The notes below the pieces were generated by a model. It was not told the DNA's origin. It made no database searches and was given only the letters and a program-made list of their open reading frames with translations. From positions 1 to 34,823 of the forward strand of contig JAURFU010000021.1 in the NCBI GenBank assembly GCA_030834165.1: DNA of 34,823 nucleotides. Direction: 5' to 3'. The translations under genes were made by a program, and so were the position numbers. Shown one piece after another: positions 6,689-13,071 of the stretch (its first letter is position 1; each line of letters opens with the position of its first letter). The stretch comes from Verrucomicrobiota bacterium. Its GTDB lineage: Bacteria; Verrucomicrobiota; Verrucomicrobiia; Opitutales; UBA953.

Positions 6689-7522
6689 TTATAAATACTT
6701 CTTCATCAAGGCTTTGCTGAAATTATCGGCGATTTCTAACAGTTCTTCCTTGGTCGGGGTCATGCGGTGATCGATGTTGAAGTGGGCTTCGCACCAGTGG
6801 GTCAGCTTCACTTTGGTCCATCTTTCGGTCTTCGGCTCGTCTCCTCGTGAGGTCGGATTGAAGGCCAATAGCTGATCGAGCAGGTTACGTGCGGCCTGGT
6901 TGAGGTCGTCGCGGGCCAGCTCCTTTTTTATCATCAGGCGCAGCGCTTCGGCCGGAGATTCGTCGGATTCCGCGATCTGCTTCATCTGCTGCACCATCGC
7001 GAAGCTGGACTTGCGGGCGGGCTTGTAGGCGGGCGCGGAAGGTTCGGCCAAATCGTCGCGCTGCGAGTAGGCCGGCGGCATGCGGGAATGAAGCCTGCTG
7101 CGCTCGGAGCGGAGGGCCGCGGTCGCGGCTTCGTCGTCGCTGGAGCGCGTACGGAAGAAGAGCTTTTCCGCCTCGGTGGGCGTGGCTAATTCGTCGATCA
7201 GCTTGTTCAGGGCGCTGAGCTCCTGGTTCTGCAGGAGCAGGGTGCGGATGCGGTCGAGGTCCCAGCCGCGTTCGGCCAGCAGGCGGGCGAGCAGGAGTTG
7301 GCGGACCTGCAGCGGGCCGAAGAGGCGCTGACGTCCGTCGTCGGGGGCTTTCTCCGGGCGGCTCAGCAGCTTCTGATAGGCGTAGAAGCGGACCAGGCGC
7401 TCGGACGAACGATGGCGTTCGCCGAAGCCGAGCTCGGCCAGTTTTTCGGACACGAAGGCGGCGAGTTCTTCGGCGGTGCCTTGGAAGTCCCGGTCGTTGA
7501 GTTGGGCTGAGATCTTTAGCAT
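6689..7522 (-). CDS. MerR-like HTH protein preceding the VWA gene
   Basis: A 277-residue cytoplasmic protein. Residues about 38-98 fit a MerR-type winged helix: ERLVRFYAYQKLLSRP, then a GRQRLFGPLQV wing and a LLAERGWDLDRIRTLL helix. The N-terminal 35 residues (LNDRDFQGTAEELAAFVSEK) and the C-terminal half match no family I can name. The middle (about 140-190) is polar and probably a linker. There is no Cys cluster of a metal sensor. The ATG at 7522 is chosen because codons further upstream run through AT-rich intergenic sequence; it has no Shine-Dalgarno. Same-strand placement before the VWA gene suggests a co-expressed pair, with the HTH protein possibly autoregulating. That is inference; the effector is unknown. 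Confidence 0.7.
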   Translation of the reverse strand: MLKISAQLNDRDFQGTAEELAAFVSEKLAELGFGERHRSSERLVRFYAYQKLLSRPEKAPDDGRQRLFGPLQVRQLLLARLLAERGWDLDRIRTLLLQNQELSALNKLIDELATPTEAEKLFFRTRSSDDEAATAALRSERSRLHSRMPPAYSQRDDLAEPSAPAYKPARKSSFAMVQQMKQIAESDESPAEALRLMIKKELARDDLNQAARNLLDQLLAFNPTSRGDEPKTERWTKVKLTHWCEAHFNIDHRMTPTKEELLEIADNFSKALMKKYL

Positions 7523-7539
7523 GGCTGACGGATAGAGAC

Positions 7540-7569
7540 AATTAAGTGTCAGTATCTGATTATTGGCAA
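7540..7569 (-). promoter_or_regulatory. Putative sigma-70 promoter with internal dyad
   Basis: Upstream of the MerR-like gene the minus strand reads TTGCCA (7569-7564), a 17-nt spacer and CTTAAT (7546-7541). The spacer contains the dyad TCAG-ATA-CTGA (about 7550-7560). MerR regulators bind dyads between -35 and -10, so this could be an autoregulatory site. The AT-rich composition stands out from the surrounding DNA. Confidence 0.35.
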
Positions 7570-7613
7570 TTCCATAGTAATGCGGATGACTGTCAGGAAA
7601 TCCCGTCAAAGAT

Positions 7614-7641
7614 GCAGGCCGTCCGCTAGCGGACGGCCTGC
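7614..7641 (-). terminator. 28-bp perfect palindrome after the first amt gene
   Basis: A perfect inverted repeat (arms GCAGGCCGTCCGCT and AGCGGACGGCCTGC, no spacer) lies 23 nt beyond the amt stop at 7665. On the minus strand it is followed only by ATCTTTG, a weak U-tract. It most likely ends the amt transcript and protects the boundary with the MerR/VWA unit. A protein-binding palindrome is the alternative. Confidence 0.55.
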
Positions 7642-7664
7642 GAGGGGGCTCCCTGGAGGGAGTC

Positions 7665-9143
7665 TCAGGAATTGTGGCTGTAACCTTCTTCGCCGTGGTC
7701 CGAGATGTCCAAGCCACGGGATTCTTCTTCTTCGGTCGGCCGGAGGCCGACGAGGGCTTTGACGAGGTAGGCGAGGACGGCGGTAGCCAGGAGGGAGATC
7801 AGCAGGGTGACGCCGATCGCCTTGAACTGTTCGAGCCAGAGCGTCTTGCCCACGATGTCCTTGAGGTTCGAGCTGAGGTTGCCGTTGACGTCGGCCGAGG
7901 CGAGGAAGCCGGTCACGATCGCCCCGAGGGTGCCGCCGACCGCGTGCACGCCGAAGGTGTCGAGCGCGTCGTCATAGCCGAGCTTGGACTTCATGTAGAC
8001 CACGGCGAGGAAGGGGATGATTCCGGCGAGGACGCCGATCAGCACCGCCGCGCTGGCGCTCACGAAGCCCGCCGCGGGCGTGATGACGACGAGGCCGGCG
8101 ACGGCGCCGGAGCAGAGGCCGAGGATGCTCGCATGACGGCGCAGCATCCATTCGAGGGCGCCCCAGGTGAAGGCGGCGACGCCCGCGGCGAGGGTCGTGG
8201 TCATGAAAGCCTGCGCGGCGACGCCGTCGGAGGCGAGGGCCGAGCCGGCGTTGAAGCCATACCAACCCACCCAGAGCATCCCGGTGCCGATGGCGCAGAG
8301 CACCATGCTGTGGGGCGTCATGGCCTTCTTGCCGAAGCCGAGACGGGGTCCGAGGATGATGCAGAGCAGGAGCGCCGACCAGCCGGAGGTCATGTGGACG
8401 ACCGTGCCGCCGGCGAAATCGATCGCCTTGATGGAAGCCTTGGCGTTCCACACGCCGTTCATCTCGCCGGTGATGCCCCAGATATGGTGGGCCATCGGGA
8501 AGTAGACGAGGAACATCCAGCCGAACATGAACAGCATGACCGCGGAGAACTTCATGCGCTCGGCGATGGCTCCGACGATGAGGGCCGGGGTGATGATCGC
8601 GAACATCAGTTGGAACATCGAGAAGACGTTCTGGGAGATCCAGTAGGCGTAGTCGGTGTTGGGCGCCGAACCGACGCCGTTCAGGAAGAAGAATTCGCTG
8701 CCGCCGAAGATCCGGCCGAGGAAGCTGCCGTCGAAGTTCTTGCCGAAGACAAGGGAGTAACCCACGGCCCACCACAGGATGGCGACCAGGCCGGCCAGGC
8801 CGAAGCACTGGGCGACCACGGACAAGACGTTCTTCGAGCGGACCAGGCCGCCGTAGAACAGGAAGAGGCCGGGCAGGGTCATGAACAACACCAAGGCGGC
8901 GCAGACCATGATGAAAGCGTTATGGCCGGGCCCGGGAGACGCGGCGATGGGGCCGGCGGCGACTTTGTCGTCCCCCGCCTTGGGGCCACCGTTGTTGACG
9001 TACGCCTCCAGGTCGGCGACACGCTGTTCGAGCGTCGCGGCGGTCGGGGCGCCCTTCGCCGGGGCTGCGTCCGAGGGCGTCTGGGCGCGGGCTTCGCCGA
9101 GGAAGCCGGTAAAAAGAAGGAGGATGAGGGCAATATAGCGCAT
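7665..9143 (-). CDS. amt: Ammonium transporter (Amt family), copy 1
   Basis: Inner-membrane ammonium channel/transporter of the Amt/MEP/Rh family. The 492 residues comprise a signal peptide (about 1-20, ending ARAQ), a periplasmic linker with a short heptad-like stretch (TLEQRVADLEAYV, 37-49), and about eleven membrane segments. The conserved pore residues are present: D242 and H250 in DFAGGTVVH, and the second twin-His H400 in DTFGVHAVGG. The cytoplasmic tail has the conserved GLDI..HGEEGY motif seen in trimeric Amts. The sequence resembles copy 3 (GKKAMTPHSMVL versus GKRAMPPHSMVL), pointing to duplication. It is transcribed from its own sigma-54 promoter; predicted +1 is only about 4 nt before the ATG. 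No glnK/glnB gene adjoins it. Confidence 0.96.
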   Translation of the reverse strand: MRYIALILLLFTGFLGEARAQTPSDAAPAKGAPTAATLEQRVADLEAYVNNGGPKAGDDKVAAGPIAASPGPGHNAFIMVCAALVLFMTLPGLFLFYGGLVRSKNVLSVVAQCFGLAGLVAILWWAVGYSLVFGKNFDGSFLGRIFGGSEFFFLNGVGSAPNTDYAYWISQNVFSMFQLMFAIITPALIVGAIAERMKFSAVMLFMFGWMFLVYFPMAHHIWGITGEMNGVWNAKASIKAIDFAGGTVVHMTSGWSALLLCIILGPRLGFGKKAMTPHSMVLCAIGTGMLWVGWYGFNAGSALASDGVAAQAFMTTTLAAGVAAFTWGALEWMLRRHASILGLCSGAVAGLVVITPAAGFVSASAAVLIGVLAGIIPFLAVVYMKSKLGYDDALDTFGVHAVGGTLGAIVTGFLASADVNGNLSSNLKDIVGKTLWLEQFKAIGVTLLISLLATAVLAYLVKALVGLRPTEEEESRGLDISDHGEEGYSHNS

Positions 9144-9158
9144 GTCGTCGATTTTATA

Positions 9159-9174
9159 GCAACCCGCGTGCCAA
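9159..9174 (-). promoter_or_regulatory. Sigma-54 (-24/-12) promoter of amt copy 1
   Basis: The minus strand reads TTGGCACGCGGGTTGC, an exact match to the RpoN consensus (TGGCAC-N5-TTGC). The final C of TTGC is 15 nt from the ATG, so transcription starting about 12 nt downstream gives a leader of roughly 4 nt. The promoter lies about 10 nt past the U-tract of the copy 2 terminator, so any enhancer-binding site must be within or beyond copy 2. Confidence 0.85.
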
Positions 9175-9183
9175 GTCCCTGAC

Positions 9184-9214
9184 CAAAGAAAAAGGCCGCC
9201 CGAAGGCGGCCTTT
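9184..9214 (-). terminator. Rho-independent terminator after amt copy 2
   Basis: A 10-bp perfect stem, AAAGGCCGCC (9191-9200) with GGCGGCCTTT (9205-9214), has a TTCG tetraloop on the transcribed strand and is followed by TTCTTTGG. It lies 24 nt past the stop at 9238. Confidence 0.9.
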
Positions 9215-9237
9215 GCCGGGAAGTGTCCCTTTTCGGC

Positions 9238-10656
9238 TTACTTGCTCGAGCGCTGGAAGTCGGGGTAGGCCTCGTTGCCGTGCTCCGCGAGGTCGAGTCC
9301 GTTGGTTTCTTCTTCCGGCGAGACCCGCAGGCCCATGACCGCCTTGATGATCAGGAAGAGGACGTACGCGAACACGAAGGAGAACAGGCCCACGGCGCCG
9401 ACGCCCTTGAGCTGGCTGATGAACTGGTCGAGACCCGCCTTGGCGCCGAAGAGGCCTACGCAGAGGGTGCCCCAGACGCCGCACACCAGGTGGACCGAGA
9501 GCGCGCCGACCGGGTCGTCGAGCTTGAGCTTGTCGAAGATCAGCACGGAGAGCACCACGATCACGCCGGACGACAGGCCGATGATGATCGAGGAGTTCAT
9601 GTTCATCTGGTCGGCGCCGGCGGTGATGCCGACCAAGCCGGCCAGGATGCCGTTGAGGACCATCGAGAGGTCGGGCTTCTTGAGCACGAGCCACGAGGTG
9701 ACCATCGAGGCAACGGCGCCTGCGGCGGCCGCGATCGAAGTTGTGACCAAGGTCAGGGAGACGAGGCCCGGATCGGCGGAAAGCACCGAGCCGCCGTTGA
9801 AGCCGAACCAGCCGAGCCACAGGAGGAAGACGCCGATCGTGGCCAGAGGCATGCTATGCCCCGGGACGGGGATGACCTTGCCGTCGGCCCGGTAGCGGCC
9901 AAGTCGGGGGCCGAGGATCATCACGCCGGCGAGGGCGCCCCAGCCGCCGACGGAGTGCACGAGCGTCGAGCCGGCGAAGTCATAGAACGGAGTGGCCATG
10001 GTGTTGAGCCAGCCGTTGCCCCACTTCCACATCCCGGTCATCGGGTAGCAGATCGCCACGAACACGGTCGAGAACACGAGGAAGCTCGACAGCTTGATGC
10101 GTTCGGCCACGGCGCCGGAGACGATGGTCGCGGCCGTGGCGGCGAACATGGCCTGGAAGAGGAAGTCGGTCCAGTAGGTGTAACCGGCGTTATAGACGTC
10201 GGTCAGCGCGGCGACGTCATCCGTCACGGTGACCCCGAAACCGGAGAAGCCGAACCATTTTCCGGCGAAGTCCGCTCCCGGGTACATCAGGTTGAAGCCC
10301 ACGATGGCGTACGTGAGGATGCCGATGCAGGGGATCAGCGTGTTCTTGAAGAGGATGTTCACGGTGTTCTTCGAACGTGTCAGGCCGGTCTCCAAGGTCG
10401 CGAAGCCCAGGTGCATGATGAAGACCAGTCCGGCCGCCAGCATCATCCAGGTGTTGTTGACCGTGAAGGTCGCGTAACCGGAGGATTCCTTGAATGCCGC
10501 GGTGTCTTTGTACTTGGGCGCCGCCGGTGCGGCGTCCGTCTTGACCTCCGCGGCGGCGGCAGGAGGAGCGGCCGGAGCCGGGGCGTTCTGCGCCGGCGAC
10601 AGATAAGGCACTGCCGCCAGGGCGAGGATGGTGAGAGTTCGTAGCAGGGATTTCAT
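9238..10656 (-). CDS. amt: Ammonium transporter (Amt family), copy 2, divergent
   Basis: A 472-residue Amt protein from a different subgroup than its neighbours. A signal peptide (about 1-22) is followed by an Ala/Pro-rich linker (about 23-50) and about eleven membrane segments. Twin-His residues are H234 (DFAGSTLVH) and H389 (GALSVH), with the conserved D227. Differences from copies 1 and 3 include a TLETGLTRSKN first helix, an LVCGVWGTLC segment after the second His, and the tail NGLDLAEHGNEAYPDF. The divergent sequence suggests an older duplication or separate acquisition and perhaps different affinity. It has its own sigma-54 promoter 15 nt before the ATG and its own terminator, so it is an independent transcription unit within the tandem array. 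Confidence 0.95.
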   Translation of the reverse strand: MKSLLRTLTILALAAVPYLSPAQNAPAPAAPPAAAAEVKTDAAPAAPKYKDTAAFKESSGYATFTVNNTWMMLAAGLVFIMHLGFATLETGLTRSKNTVNILFKNTLIPCIGILTYAIVGFNLMYPGADFAGKWFGFSGFGVTVTDDVAALTDVYNAGYTYWTDFLFQAMFAATAATIVSGAVAERIKLSSFLVFSTVFVAICYPMTGMWKWGNGWLNTMATPFYDFAGSTLVHSVGGWGALAGVMILGPRLGRYRADGKVIPVPGHSMPLATIGVFLLWLGWFGFNGGSVLSADPGLVSLTLVTTSIAAAAGAVASMVTSWLVLKKPDLSMVLNGILAGLVGITAGADQMNMNSSIIIGLSSGVIVVLSVLIFDKLKLDDPVGALSVHLVCGVWGTLCVGLFGAKAGLDQFISQLKGVGAVGLFSFVFAYVLFLIIKAVMGLRVSPEEETNGLDLAEHGNEAYPDFQRSSK

Positions 10657-10671
10657 GGCGTAGGGGCTTTC

Positions 10672-10687
10672 GCAACCCCCGTGCCAA
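10672..10687 (-). promoter_or_regulatory. Sigma-54 (-24/-12) promoter of amt copy 2
   Basis: The minus strand reads TTGGCACGGGGGTTGC, a perfect RpoN match ending 15 nt before the ATG at 10656. About 30 nt further upstream is the inverted repeat GTGCT-N6-AGCAC (10717-10732), a possible activator site; its half-site polarity is opposite to the usual NtrC box. Confidence 0.85.
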
Positions 10688-10741
10688 CCCCTCCGTTCGC
10701 CTGTTTCGTCCCGAATGTGCTTATTTTAGCACGCAAGGCTT

Positions 10742-10783
10742 GCCGGCCGTTGCTCTTTTCCGAGCACGACTCCCTCGGCCGGC
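10742..10783 (-). terminator. Nested hairpin after amt copy 3
   Basis: Outer stem GCCGGCCG (10742-10749) with CGGCCGGC (10776-10783); inside it TGCTC (10751-10755) pairs with GAGCA (10762-10766). It begins 13 nt past the amt stop at 10796. No U-tract follows, so it may stabilise a 3' end or act with Rho rather than terminate by itself. Confidence 0.4.
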
Positions 10784-10795
10784 GACGAAAACAGC

Positions 10796-12076
10796 TTAGT
10801 TCGCGTTGTAGCCTTCTTCGCCGTGGTCGGCGATATCGAGTCCCTGGGCCTCGCCTTCTTCCGTCGGACGCAGACCGATGGTCGCGCCGACGAGCTTGGC
10901 GATCACCCAGGTAAGCAGGAGCGAGAGCCCGATGCAGAGCGCCATCGCCGTCAGCTGCCCTTTGAGGAGGCCTTGGGCGATGAGCTTGCCGCCCGCTTCG
11001 TTCAAGGCGCCGTCCATGAGGAGGGCCGTCGCGAGCGCGCCGATCGTGCCGCCGACGCCGTGCACGCCAAAGGTGTCGAGGGCGTCGTCGTAGCCGAAGC
11101 GGGTCTTGAGGACCGAGCAGGCCCAGTAAGAGACGCCGCCGGCGAACAGTCCGATGATCACGGCCGAGCCAGCCGACACGAAGCCGGCCGCGTTGGTCAC
11201 GGTGGCGAGTCCGGCGATGGCGCCTGAGCAAAGACCGAGCACCGAGACCTTGCCGCGGTGGAGTTTCTCGACGAACGCCCAGGTCAGCGTGGCCGTGGCC
11301 GCGCCGAGCGTGGTCGTCAGGACGGCCTGCAGGGCCACGGCGTCGGCCGCCAGGGCCGAGCCGGCGTTGAAGCCATACCAGCCGAACCAGAGCAGGCCGG
11401 TGCCGATGACGCAAAGGACCATGCTGTGCGGGGGCATGGCGCGCTTGCCGAAGCCGGCGCGCGGGCCGACCAGCATGCACAGCAGCAGGGCGGACCAGCC
11501 CGAAGTCATATGCACGACGATGCCGCCGGCGAAGTCCGCGGCCTTGAAGGCGGCCTCGCCGTTGGCGATGCCCGCGAAGTCTCCCGTGACTCCCCAGACG
11601 GCGTGCGCCATGGGGTAGTAGACGAAGATCGTCCAGAGGAACGAGAAGAGCATGACGGCCGAGAACTTCATGCGTTCCGCGACCGCGCCGATGATGAGCG
11701 CCGGCGTGATGGCCGCGAACATCGCCTGGAAGAGGGCGAACGCGCCGGAGGAGATGCCGGCCGCGTAGGCGGGGTCCGGGGCGAAGCCGACGCCGGCGAA
11801 GCCGAGATGCTCGCTGCCGCCGAAGACGTGGCCGAGCAGTCCGCCGGAGAAGTTCTTGCCGAAGACGAGGCTGTAGCCGAAGGCCCACCACATGAGGATG
11901 CCCATGGCGGTGAGCGCCAGACACTGCGCCGCGATGGAGAGCACGTTCTTGCCGCGCACGAGGCCACCGTAGAAAAGGAAGAGGCCCGGGATGCACATCA
12001 TCAGGACCAAGGCGGTGCTGATCAGGACCCAGACGTTGTCGGCGGCATTCGGCGCAGGCGTGGCAGAAATAATCAT
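10796..12076 (-). CDS. amt: Ammonium transporter (Amt family), copy 3
   Basis: A 426-residue Amt protein without the long signal/linker region of the other two copies; only 13 residues precede the first membrane helix. Pore residues are intact: D181 and H189 in DFAGGIVVH, H339 in DTFGVHGVGG. The tail carries GLDIADHGEEGY. It is close to copy 1 over its whole length and is the more compact paralogue. Its sigma-54 promoter ends 15 nt before the ATG at 12076. It is divergent from the outer-membrane barrel gene at 12172, with a 95-nt AT-rich gap between them. Substrate (ammonium, possibly methylammonium) follows from the family. Confidence 0.96.
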   Translation of the reverse strand: MIISATPAPNAADNVWVLISTALVLMMCIPGLFLFYGGLVRGKNVLSIAAQCLALTAMGILMWWAFGYSLVFGKNFSGGLLGHVFGGSEHLGFAGVGFAPDPAYAAGISSGAFALFQAMFAAITPALIIGAVAERMKFSAVMLFSFLWTIFVYYPMAHAVWGVTGDFAGIANGEAAFKAADFAGGIVVHMTSGWSALLLCMLVGPRAGFGKRAMPPHSMVLCVIGTGLLWFGWYGFNAGSALAADAVALQAVLTTTLGAATATLTWAFVEKLHRGKVSVLGLCSGAIAGLATVTNAAGFVSAGSAVIIGLFAGGVSYWACSVLKTRFGYDDALDTFGVHGVGGTIGALATALLMDGALNEAGGKLIAQGLLKGQLTAMALCIGLSLLLTWVIAKLVGATIGLRPTEEGEAQGLDIADHGEEGYNAN

Positions 12077-12090
12077 ATTGCGACTTAATA

Positions 12091-12107
12091 AGCAAAAAGC
12101 GTGCCAT
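12091..12107 (-). promoter_or_regulatory. Sigma-54 (-24/-12) promoter of amt copy 3
   Basis: The minus strand reads TATGGCACGCTTTTTGCT; TGGCAC and TTGC are separated by exactly 5 nt, as RpoN requires. The TTGC ends 15 nt before the ATG, the same geometry as the other two amt genes. The DNA upstream (12107-12171) is AT-rich, but I see no clear activator repeat. Confidence 0.88.
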
Positions 12108-12171
12108 AAATTAACCAGCGATGCTTCCCCGCTTGCTATGAGGGTTTTTCAGGGATTTATTTTTTTTAACG

Positions 12172-13071
12172 ATGAAACATCTGCACAAACTTGGGCAAAT
12201 CGCCAAGATTTGCTTATTCCTATGCACCTTCTCGGCGGCCTTTGCCCAGACTCAGCCTAAACCCTGGTTGCTCATGGTCGACGGGCAGTATCGCGCCGCC
12301 GACGTCATCACCCACGCCGGGGGTGTCACCGGTTCCTTCGGTCGTTCGCGTACGGGCGTCGAACTCATCCATCAGGACGCAGACCGTGCCATCGACCTGG
12401 AGTGGTATCGCTACGAGCACACATTCGCCGGCGCCGTCGCCGGCACCGAGCGCTCCTACGGCAATACGCAGGACCTGATTCTGTCCGGCTTCCGCCAGTG
12501 GCGACTTTCCGACAAGTATGCCGGTCAGATCATCTATGGGTTGGAGCTCGCCGCGGAGGAATCCATCGGCCTCGAGGACGGTTTCCGCTGGGGGCTGGGC
12601 GGCGCTTTGCGCTGGCGGCACGACGACGAGACCGATGTCGCCTTGGGCCTGATGTTCCAGGATCGCTTCGAGAACTCGATCCTGCCGGTGCCCTACGTGA
12701 AGGCTTTCTGGCGTCCTTGCCGTTACGCCGAAGTGGAGCTTCGCGCGACGGGCCTCCAGAACGGCGTCATCTTCCGGGGTTTCCCCACGGGCGATCGCGC
12801 GACGACGGTGGACCTGCTCGTGGCTTACGAGACGCTCAATTTCCGGCTTGCCGACGCCGCCTACGGCAGCCGGGCGGTGGTCGTCGGCGAAGTGCCCCTC
12901 CGCCTCGGCGTCACCCAGTTCCTCGAACCCACCGGCACGTGGTTCCTGCGCGCCCAGTTCGAGTGGGTCGCCTTCGCGCGTCACAGCTTCAAGCACGCCG
13001 GCGAGACCCAAGGCGCTTTCCAGCCGGGCGCGACCTGGGGGGTCGGGGGTCGCGTGGGCGCCCGCTTCTGA
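12172..13071 (+). CDS. Outer-membrane beta-barrel protein, function unknown
   Basis: A 299-residue exported protein. A signal peptide (about 1-25, ending AAFAQ) is followed by alternating short strands rich in aromatic residues. The last residues, VGARF, end in Phe, the classic BamA-recognised C-terminus of outer-membrane barrels. Repeated strand patterns such as TDVALGLMFQDRF and PYVKAFWRP suggest a small barrel; I suspect the DUF6268-like group but cannot prove it. The ATG at 12172 is preceded by a run of eight T and no Shine-Dalgarno. It is divergent from amt copy 3, so it could share regulation through the 95-nt spacer. No substrate is apparent. Confidence 0.7.
   Translation: MKHLHKLGQIAKICLFLCTFSAAFAQTQPKPWLLMVDGQYRAADVITHAGGVTGSFGRSRTGVELIHQDADRAIDLEWYRYEHTFAGAVAGTERSYGNTQDLILSGFRQWRLSDKYAGQIIYGLELAAEESIGLEDGFRWGLGGALRWRHDDETDVALGLMFQDRFENSILPVPYVKAFWRPCRYAEVELRATGLQNGVIFRGFPTGDRATTVDLLVAYETLNFRLADAAYGSRAVVVGEVPLRLGVTQFLEPTGTWFLRAQFEWVAFARHSFKHAGETQGAFQPGATWGVGGRVGARF

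Follow-up and report, generated by a model that had tools for sequence, protein, structure and literature searches.

Sigma-54-type promoters at a conserved short distance from the start codons of ammonium transporter genes in a genus of Opitutales

The window analysed here, 34,823 nt of contig JAURFU010000021.1 (positions 1 to 34,823, assembly GCA_030834165.1; Verrucomicrobiota, Opitutales, UBA953), carries three tandem ammonium transporter genes, amt1, amt2, and amt3, each of which is preceded by a sigma-54-type promoter (Table 1). The draft genome of the host comprises 2.25 Mb in 150 contigs and is 81% complete. Sites were scored against the pattern TGGCAC-N5-TTGC, and distance denotes throughout the number of nucleotides between the C of TTGC and the ATG. 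A first-pass annotation had reported a perfect copy of this pattern before each amt gene and exactly 15 nt from site to start codon in all three cases; both statements were confirmed, the ATGs of amt1, amt2, and amt3 starting at positions 9143, 10656, and 12076, respectively. The start codons look secure, since the N-termini of amt1 and amt2 are signal-peptide-like (by eye) and in amt3 the match to TIGR00836 already starts at residue 13. In pairwise comparison, the three spacers have 2, 5, and 7 of 15 bases in common. The whole draft genome contains four perfect copies of the pattern, compared to one for a reversed-pattern control; three are the amt sites and the fourth lies inside a frame that stays open for 1.2 kb upstream of the next ATG. 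A looser pattern (TGGCAY-N6-TGC followed by an ATG after 9-26 nt) gave eight matches versus two for the control, and the four of these with a distance of 15 nt belong to the three amt genes and the gene of an NtrC-like activator.

According to a profile search, the genome encodes RpoN (PF04552, E 9e-52, in a 524-aa frame) and, on a contig other than that of the amt genes, PII (PF00543, 116.6 bits versus a cut-off of 25). PF00158 has six matches, one covering the full domain and five partial, and matches to it were also present in all 14 control genomes. The protein with the full domain is composed of a receiver domain, a sigma-54 interaction domain, and a Fis-type helix-turn-helix domain (HTH_8). 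Its best NCBIfam match is ntrC (TIGR01818), but as its score of 486.8 bits is below the cut-off of 558.6 bits, it is designated NtrC-like only. With conserved sites and with RpoN, an NtrC-like activator, and PII encoded, the proposal of the first-pass annotation that ammonium uptake is under RpoN-type control appears well supported.

Table 1 Features of the amt region of the window (all on the minus strand)
Feature	Position	Strand	Remarks
amt3 sigma-54 promoter (-24/-12 elements), TGGCACGCTTTTTGC	12092..12106	-	10/10 match; kept in genus
amt3 spacer, 15 nt; predicted +1 = A at 12079, leader AAT	12077..12091	-	25/25 distinct amt3 spacers with pyrimidine 12, purine 13
amt3, ammonium transporter	10796..12076	-	PF00909 and TIGR00836 above cut-off; no signal peptide seen
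amt3 candidate activator site, TGCCCAAGTTTGTGCA	12182..12197	-	8/12; first base 91 nt before -24 T; inside divergent reading frame; same distance in 21/41 amt3 genes
amt3 second candidate activator site, TGCATAGGAATAAGCA	12211..12226	-	11/12; 120 nt upstream
amt2 sigma-54 promoter, TGGCACGGGGGTTGC	10672..10686	-	10/10 match; kept in genus
amt2 spacer, 15 nt; predicted +1 = G at 10659, leader GCC	10657..10671	-	30/30 distinct amt1- plus amt2-type spacers with pyrimidine 12, G 13
amt2, ammonium transporter	9238..10656	-	PF00909 and TIGR00836 above cut-off; nearest TIGR03644 (marine subtype), below its cut-off
amt2 candidate activator site, TGCTCGGAAAAGAGCA	10751..10766	-	8/12, perfect 5-bp arms; 80 nt before -24 T; same distance in 23/49 relatives
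amt2 second upstream palindrome, GTGCTAAAATAAGCAC	10717..10732	-	may be chance
amt1 sigma-54 promoter, TGGCACGCGGGTTGC	9159..9173	-	10/10 match
amt1 spacer, 15 nt; predicted +1 = G at 9146, leader GAC	9144..9158	-	position and pyrimidine-purine signature
amt1, ammonium transporter	7665..9143	-	PF00909 and TIGR00836 above cut-off
Terminator-like hairpin, 10 pairs, T-rich tail	9191..9214	-	between amt2 and amt1 promoter; three such sites in region versus 3.5 expected by chance

The distance was followed through a family sample of 79 genomes in five genera (that of the window and those designated g2 to g5), 66 of which have an amt match. Besides the window, 51 genomes of its genus and nine of g2 supplied amt regions, to which four more stretches were added later. 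For each gene, the site used was the one with the best score in the stretch from 200 nt ahead of the open frame to the conserved core. At a threshold of 8/10, this gave a base set of 97 amt genes of the genus with upstream DNA, the window's three included; five more are cut by contig ends, and the matches G034:C150, G037:C436, and G070:C45, also cut at contig ends, are outside the count. An ATG is located 15 nt from the site in 91 of the 97 genes (five of which also have an ATG at 12 nt), and the six exceptions show distances of 12, 12, 18, 19, 20, and 20 nt. With two extra genes (L380 and L381), one at 15 nt and the other with no site 8-40 nt ahead of an ATG, the total for the genus is 92/99. 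In g5, all four amt genes have the 15-nt distance, in g2 four of nine (with an ATG at 13-16 nt in eight of nine), and the only g3 gene has 12 nt; no amt match was found in the eight g4 genomes. The 15-nt spacers themselves vary: 25 distinct sequences occur among 41 amt3 genes (mean pairwise identity 0.65, minimum 0.33) and 30 among 50 genes of the amt1/amt2 type (mean 0.60, minimum 0.27). That length is conserved while sequence drifts is thereby well supported by comparison of the amt3 and amt2 positions. The gene of the NtrC-like activator has a match in 61 of the 79 genomes, and in all 30 loci examined a 9/10 site precedes its ATG, at 15 nt (23 loci), 14 nt (four), or 12 nt (three). Its spacers are almost identical (the 23 with 15 nt comprise six distinct sequences) and are therefore weaker evidence for conservation of length than those of the amt genes.

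Other sigma-54-like promoters of the same organisms behave differently. The PII gene has a 9/10 site 49 nt before its ATG, and of the 18 dnaK loci of the window's genus, all with a site scoring 9/10 or 8/10, 17 show a distance of 29-36 nt and one of 50 nt, so that spacer lengths do drift there. A conserved DUF748-like gene of the genus (L101, L110, L317; the Pfam score of L110, 45.3, is under the cut-off of 50) has sites 18, 19, and 20 nt before the ATG. A universal rule placing every sigma-54 gene at 15 nt was dropped in view of these distances; the distance from the -12 element to the ATG is gene-specific and follows no single rule for all three amt genes or for all sigma-54 genes. The contrast with dnaK also bears on the possibility that the promoters are real and the leaders short, but that the constant 15 nt reflects common descent with few insertions or deletions and no selection on leader length. 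The amt3 and amt2-position promoters are orthologous throughout the genus and the activator spacers nearly identical, which fits this explanation, whereas a mean spacer identity of 0.60-0.65 combined with an ATG at 15 nt in 91/97 genes, the drift of the dnaK spacer within the same genus, and the fact that distances still cluster outside it (13-16 nt in g2, 15 nt in g5, and a peak at 16 nt in Opitutaceae, see below) argue against it; we consider common descent an unlikely sole cause.

The dnaK sites deserve a comment of their own. In g2 and g4 they are located 15-18 nt before the ATG in ten of 11 loci and 68 nt in the eleventh, while a single g3 locus has 75 nt. Sigma-54-like sites also precede clpB (at 18 and 17 nt) and htpG (at 17 nt), each in two loci of g4, gene identity having been assigned at one locus each, and in the window's genus a GACA-N3-TGTC palindrome is present upstream of dnaK in the four loci inspected. 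The dnaK, clpB, and htpG sites (L091-L095, L348-L377) suggest a sigma-54 heat-shock regulon; an enrichment of chaperone genes in sigma-54 regulons is reported for Planctomycetota and Bacteroidota (PMC12316311).

The spacers also indicate where transcription might start. All 55 distinct 15-nt spacers of the genus have a pyrimidine at base 12 followed by a purine at base 13, and a pyrimidine-purine step is the usual -1/+1 initiator pair (PMC4782308). The step thus places +1 at base 13 and suggests a leader of three nucleotides, or no leader at all with a 12-nt distance; the first-pass annotation had set +1 about 4 nt before the start codon, one more than the signature indicates. In the cases with an ATG at 12 nt (L160, L168, three activator genes, and L378), base 13 is the A of the ATG and base 12 is C in six of six (by eye), so that these mRNAs would be strictly leaderless. 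Four amt1 orthologues with distances of 18-20 nt show the step at 12/13 in two cases and a base or two earlier in the other two (by eye). If the promoters are used, with 15 nt between the -12 element and the ATG, the transcript is too short upstream of the start codon to hold a Shine-Dalgarno sequence, and the nearly leaderless mRNAs of the first-pass annotation become a well-supported prediction from the position of the promoters and the step at 12/13. There is no support for a lost anti-Shine-Dalgarno sequence as the explanation: the sole 16S rRNA gene found in the family (in one of 79 genomes, of g4 and not of the window's genus) ends GGATCACCTCCTTTCT. Shine-Dalgarno-like tetramers precede two of 30 dnaK starts, compared to 10% of random 14-mers, and some verrucomicrobial species poor in Shine-Dalgarno sequences are reported to have an intact CCUCC (PMC10783764).

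Alternatively, the sigma-54-like sites could be fortuitous or relict, the mRNAs being made from an unrecognised promoter farther upstream that has a normal leader. The conservation of the sites across the family and the location of three of the genome's four perfect copies in this region speak against this, as does, weakly, a search of positions 7500-12400 in which no sigma-70-type promoter was found (0.5 expected by chance), and we regard it as highly improbable. The short distance could also be a by-product of promoter-proximal regulation, such as a bound protein or polymerase covering the start codon, with no translational role. Polymerase bound at the promoter would be expected to reach the ATG at such distances, but nothing found hints at a repressor of this kind, although none was searched for, and distances of 12, 14, 15, and 16 nt correspond to predicted leaders of 0-4 nt; this explanation seems improbable, if less so than that of relict sites.

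The spacing of amt1 has a history of its own. In five other genomes with an amt2-type core, the amt1 orthologues show distances of 12, 18, 19, 20, and 20 nt. In the four genes tested from the amt2 position of relatives with two amt genes, the promoter and signal peptide resemble those of the window's amt2 (21-24 of 25 N-terminal residues), but the core is 88-91% identical to that of the window's amt1 versus 38% to that of amt2. Within the region 7665-10656, the window's amt2 therefore looks chimeric, the promoter and signal peptide of an ancestral amt1-type gene being joined to a different amt core. On the simplest reading, a different core would have entered behind the old promoter and signal peptide in six genomes (the window's, G040, G041, G044, G045, and G065), in which the old core would have persisted downstream behind a newly acquired promoter and signal peptide. 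A new promoter would explain the scatter of amt1 spacing, and the 15-nt distance of amt1 in the window may have arisen independently. Duplication of one promoter was considered as an origin of the equal spacing and rejected: the spacers have just 2-7 of 15 bases in common and the amt1 orthologues scatter, so that amt1 of the window did not simply inherit its 15 nt. Among the matches listed, the named relative closest to amt2 (75%) comes from a metagenome-assembled genome of Cephaloticoccus, a genus of Opitutaceae by taxonomy.

In this second family, represented by 100 genomes of which 85 have an amt1-like match, 70 loci, mostly from the top of the match list, yielded 74 amt frames with upstream DNA. 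A site of at least 8/10 was found in 49 of these and none in 25; in the 49, an ATG follows after 10-30 nt in 35 and no such ATG in 14. Counted by distinct starts, a site lies 12-24 nt before the ATG in 34 of 72, compared to a mean of 0.65 and a maximum of 4 in 200 shuffles. The distances peak at 16 nt (15/34) with a tail, and the pyrimidine-purine step at 12/13 is present in 19 of 34 distinct spacers versus 3-9 at adjacent steps. The layout thus extends to Opitutaceae, in a looser form. The first-pass annotation's expectation of conserved spacing despite divergent sequence, with the same spacing in homologues, accordingly stands for the amt3 and amt2 positions and for most amt genes of the genus, but fails for the amt1 orthologues (12-20 nt) and is blurred in Opitutaceae. 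Opitutaceae bacterium EW11 (L210, L219) has perfect sites before an flhB-like gene (18 nt) and a flagellar rod gene resembling flgB (14 nt), both identified by matching the first 70 residues alone to Pfam, so that short distances also occur outside the nitrogen genes. In a wider set of 80 named loci with 94 Amt frames, 22 have a site of at least 8/10 and in only four of these does an ATG follow after 10-25 nt (Cephaloticoccus, Opitutaceae bacterium EW11, one Kiritimatiellae record, and one Acidobacteriota record); the layout is claimed here for two families and nothing beyond.

Upstream of the promoters, palindromes resembling activator sites were found. A consensus, TGCTTA-N4-TAAGCA, was derived from the amt3 upstream regions and applied with a threshold of 9/12. 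In the genus, palindromes of at least 9/12 occur in 36/41 amt3, 29/49 amt2-position, and 29/29 activator promoters, compared to 8, 5, and 8% in shuffles, respectively. The commonest distance from their first base to the -24 T is 91 nt for amt3 (21/41), 80 nt for the amt2 position (23/49), and 69 nt for the activator gene (26/29), i.e., steps of 11 bp or about one helical turn. The PII gene of the window's genome has a 10/12 match at 47 nt. A search with the window's own palindrome sequence, allowing two mismatches, gave seven matches versus 5.4 expected, and before the window's amt1 no palindrome of at least 8/12 was found within 200 nt upstream. We infer that the NtrC-like protein binds these palindromes.

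Taken together, the three amt genes quite likely form separate, nearly leaderless sigma-54 transcription units of a nitrogen-stress regulon. Nitrogen limitation would act through the NtrC-like activator, itself expressed from a sigma-54 promoter with the same spacing, which would bind upstream palindromes of the type TGCTTAAATTTAAGCA, located on the same face of the helix, and open RpoN-polymerase at TGGCAC-N5-TTGC. The first transcribed base would be the purine at position 13 counted from the C of TTGC, giving mRNAs of the form R-N-N-AUG with a 3-nt leader or, for genes with a 12-nt distance, mRNAs that start with AUG itself, and translation would initiate without a Shine-Dalgarno sequence. 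At the main promoters, the distance from -12 to ATG may be under selection, since a somewhat longer leader without ribosome-binding site would be translated less well. A further step, which we put forward with considerable doubt, is that the nitrogen-stress core (amt genes and activator) holds its sigma-54 promoters at this distance from the start codon so that starvation mRNAs use a separate, Shine-Dalgarno-independent initiation of the leaderless type, which would tie the choice of sigma factor to the route of translation.

Several observations weigh against this reading. Besides the activator's score below the ntrC cut-off, the long PII and dnaK distances, the scattered amt1 orthologues, and the Opitutaceae frames lacking a site or a nearby ATG, these are L381, an amt gene of the genus without a site 8-40 nt before an ATG, and the conserved GCC before the amt2 ATG, which could be a translation signal instead of an initiator. 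As the palindrome consensus was drawn from the amt3 upstream regions, amt3 is no independent test of it; the window's own amt2 palindrome scores just 8/12, and none of six amt1 orthologues, the window's gene included, has a palindrome at 9/12. Lacking a palindrome and a conserved spacing, the window's amt1 is the gene whose regulation is less certain, and the layout appears strongest at amt3, the amt2 position, and the activator gene.

The first-pass annotation knew of no described example of such fixed geometry. In open-access full-text literature, no earlier description of sigma-54 promoters at a fixed distance from the start codon was recognised, a statement that reaches as far as these searches. 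A 2025 survey of sigma-54 regulons includes Opitutia, and the terms leaderless, start codon, and untranslated region (UTR) are absent from the text of it available to us (PMC12316311). The separate parts are known, and it is their combination and its conservation that appear new within the literature searched. Predicted leaders of 0, 2, 3, and 4 nt among relatives provide a natural series within one regulon, with dnaK and PII as internal controls with longer leaders, so that the tolerance of leaderless-type initiation becomes directly testable. The layout would also be a warning for gene finders that expect a ribosome-binding site, because the promoter here occupies its usual place.

The classical NtrC/sigma-54 nitrogen regulon of the glnK-amtB type comprises -24/-12 promoters, upstream palindromic activator sites, and a leader with a ribosome-binding site. 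The system described here resembles it in having RpoN, an NtrC-like activator, PII, amt genes, -24/-12 promoters, and upstream palindromes as candidate activator sites. It differs in a predicted leader of 0-3 nt without ribosome-binding site, in an activator gene with the same spacing as the amt genes, in the location of amt and PII genes on different contigs, and in an activator below the ntrC cut-off. In Leptospira interrogans, likewise outside Pseudomonadota, a sigma-54 site before amtB has been described, in the passages concerned without reference to start-codon distance (PMC5243855). Akkermansia muciniphila, a verrucomicrobium and thus of the same phylum as Opitutaceae, has leaderless mRNAs at 10% of mapped starts, and a pyrimidine-purine initiator was found in all four species studied; the relevant passages draw no tie to sigma-54 or nitrogen genes (PMC4782308). 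The genomes of Sinorhizobium and Bradyrhizobium likewise combine leaderless mRNAs with RpoN promoters (PMC3616915, PMC4842269). In a known case in which a promoter element a few base pairs from the open reading frame gives leaderless mRNA, this element is a -10 motif, and the motif found for the leaderless genes of Bradyrhizobium is an extended -10 box, whereas in the genes described here the element is of the -24/-12 sigma-54 type.

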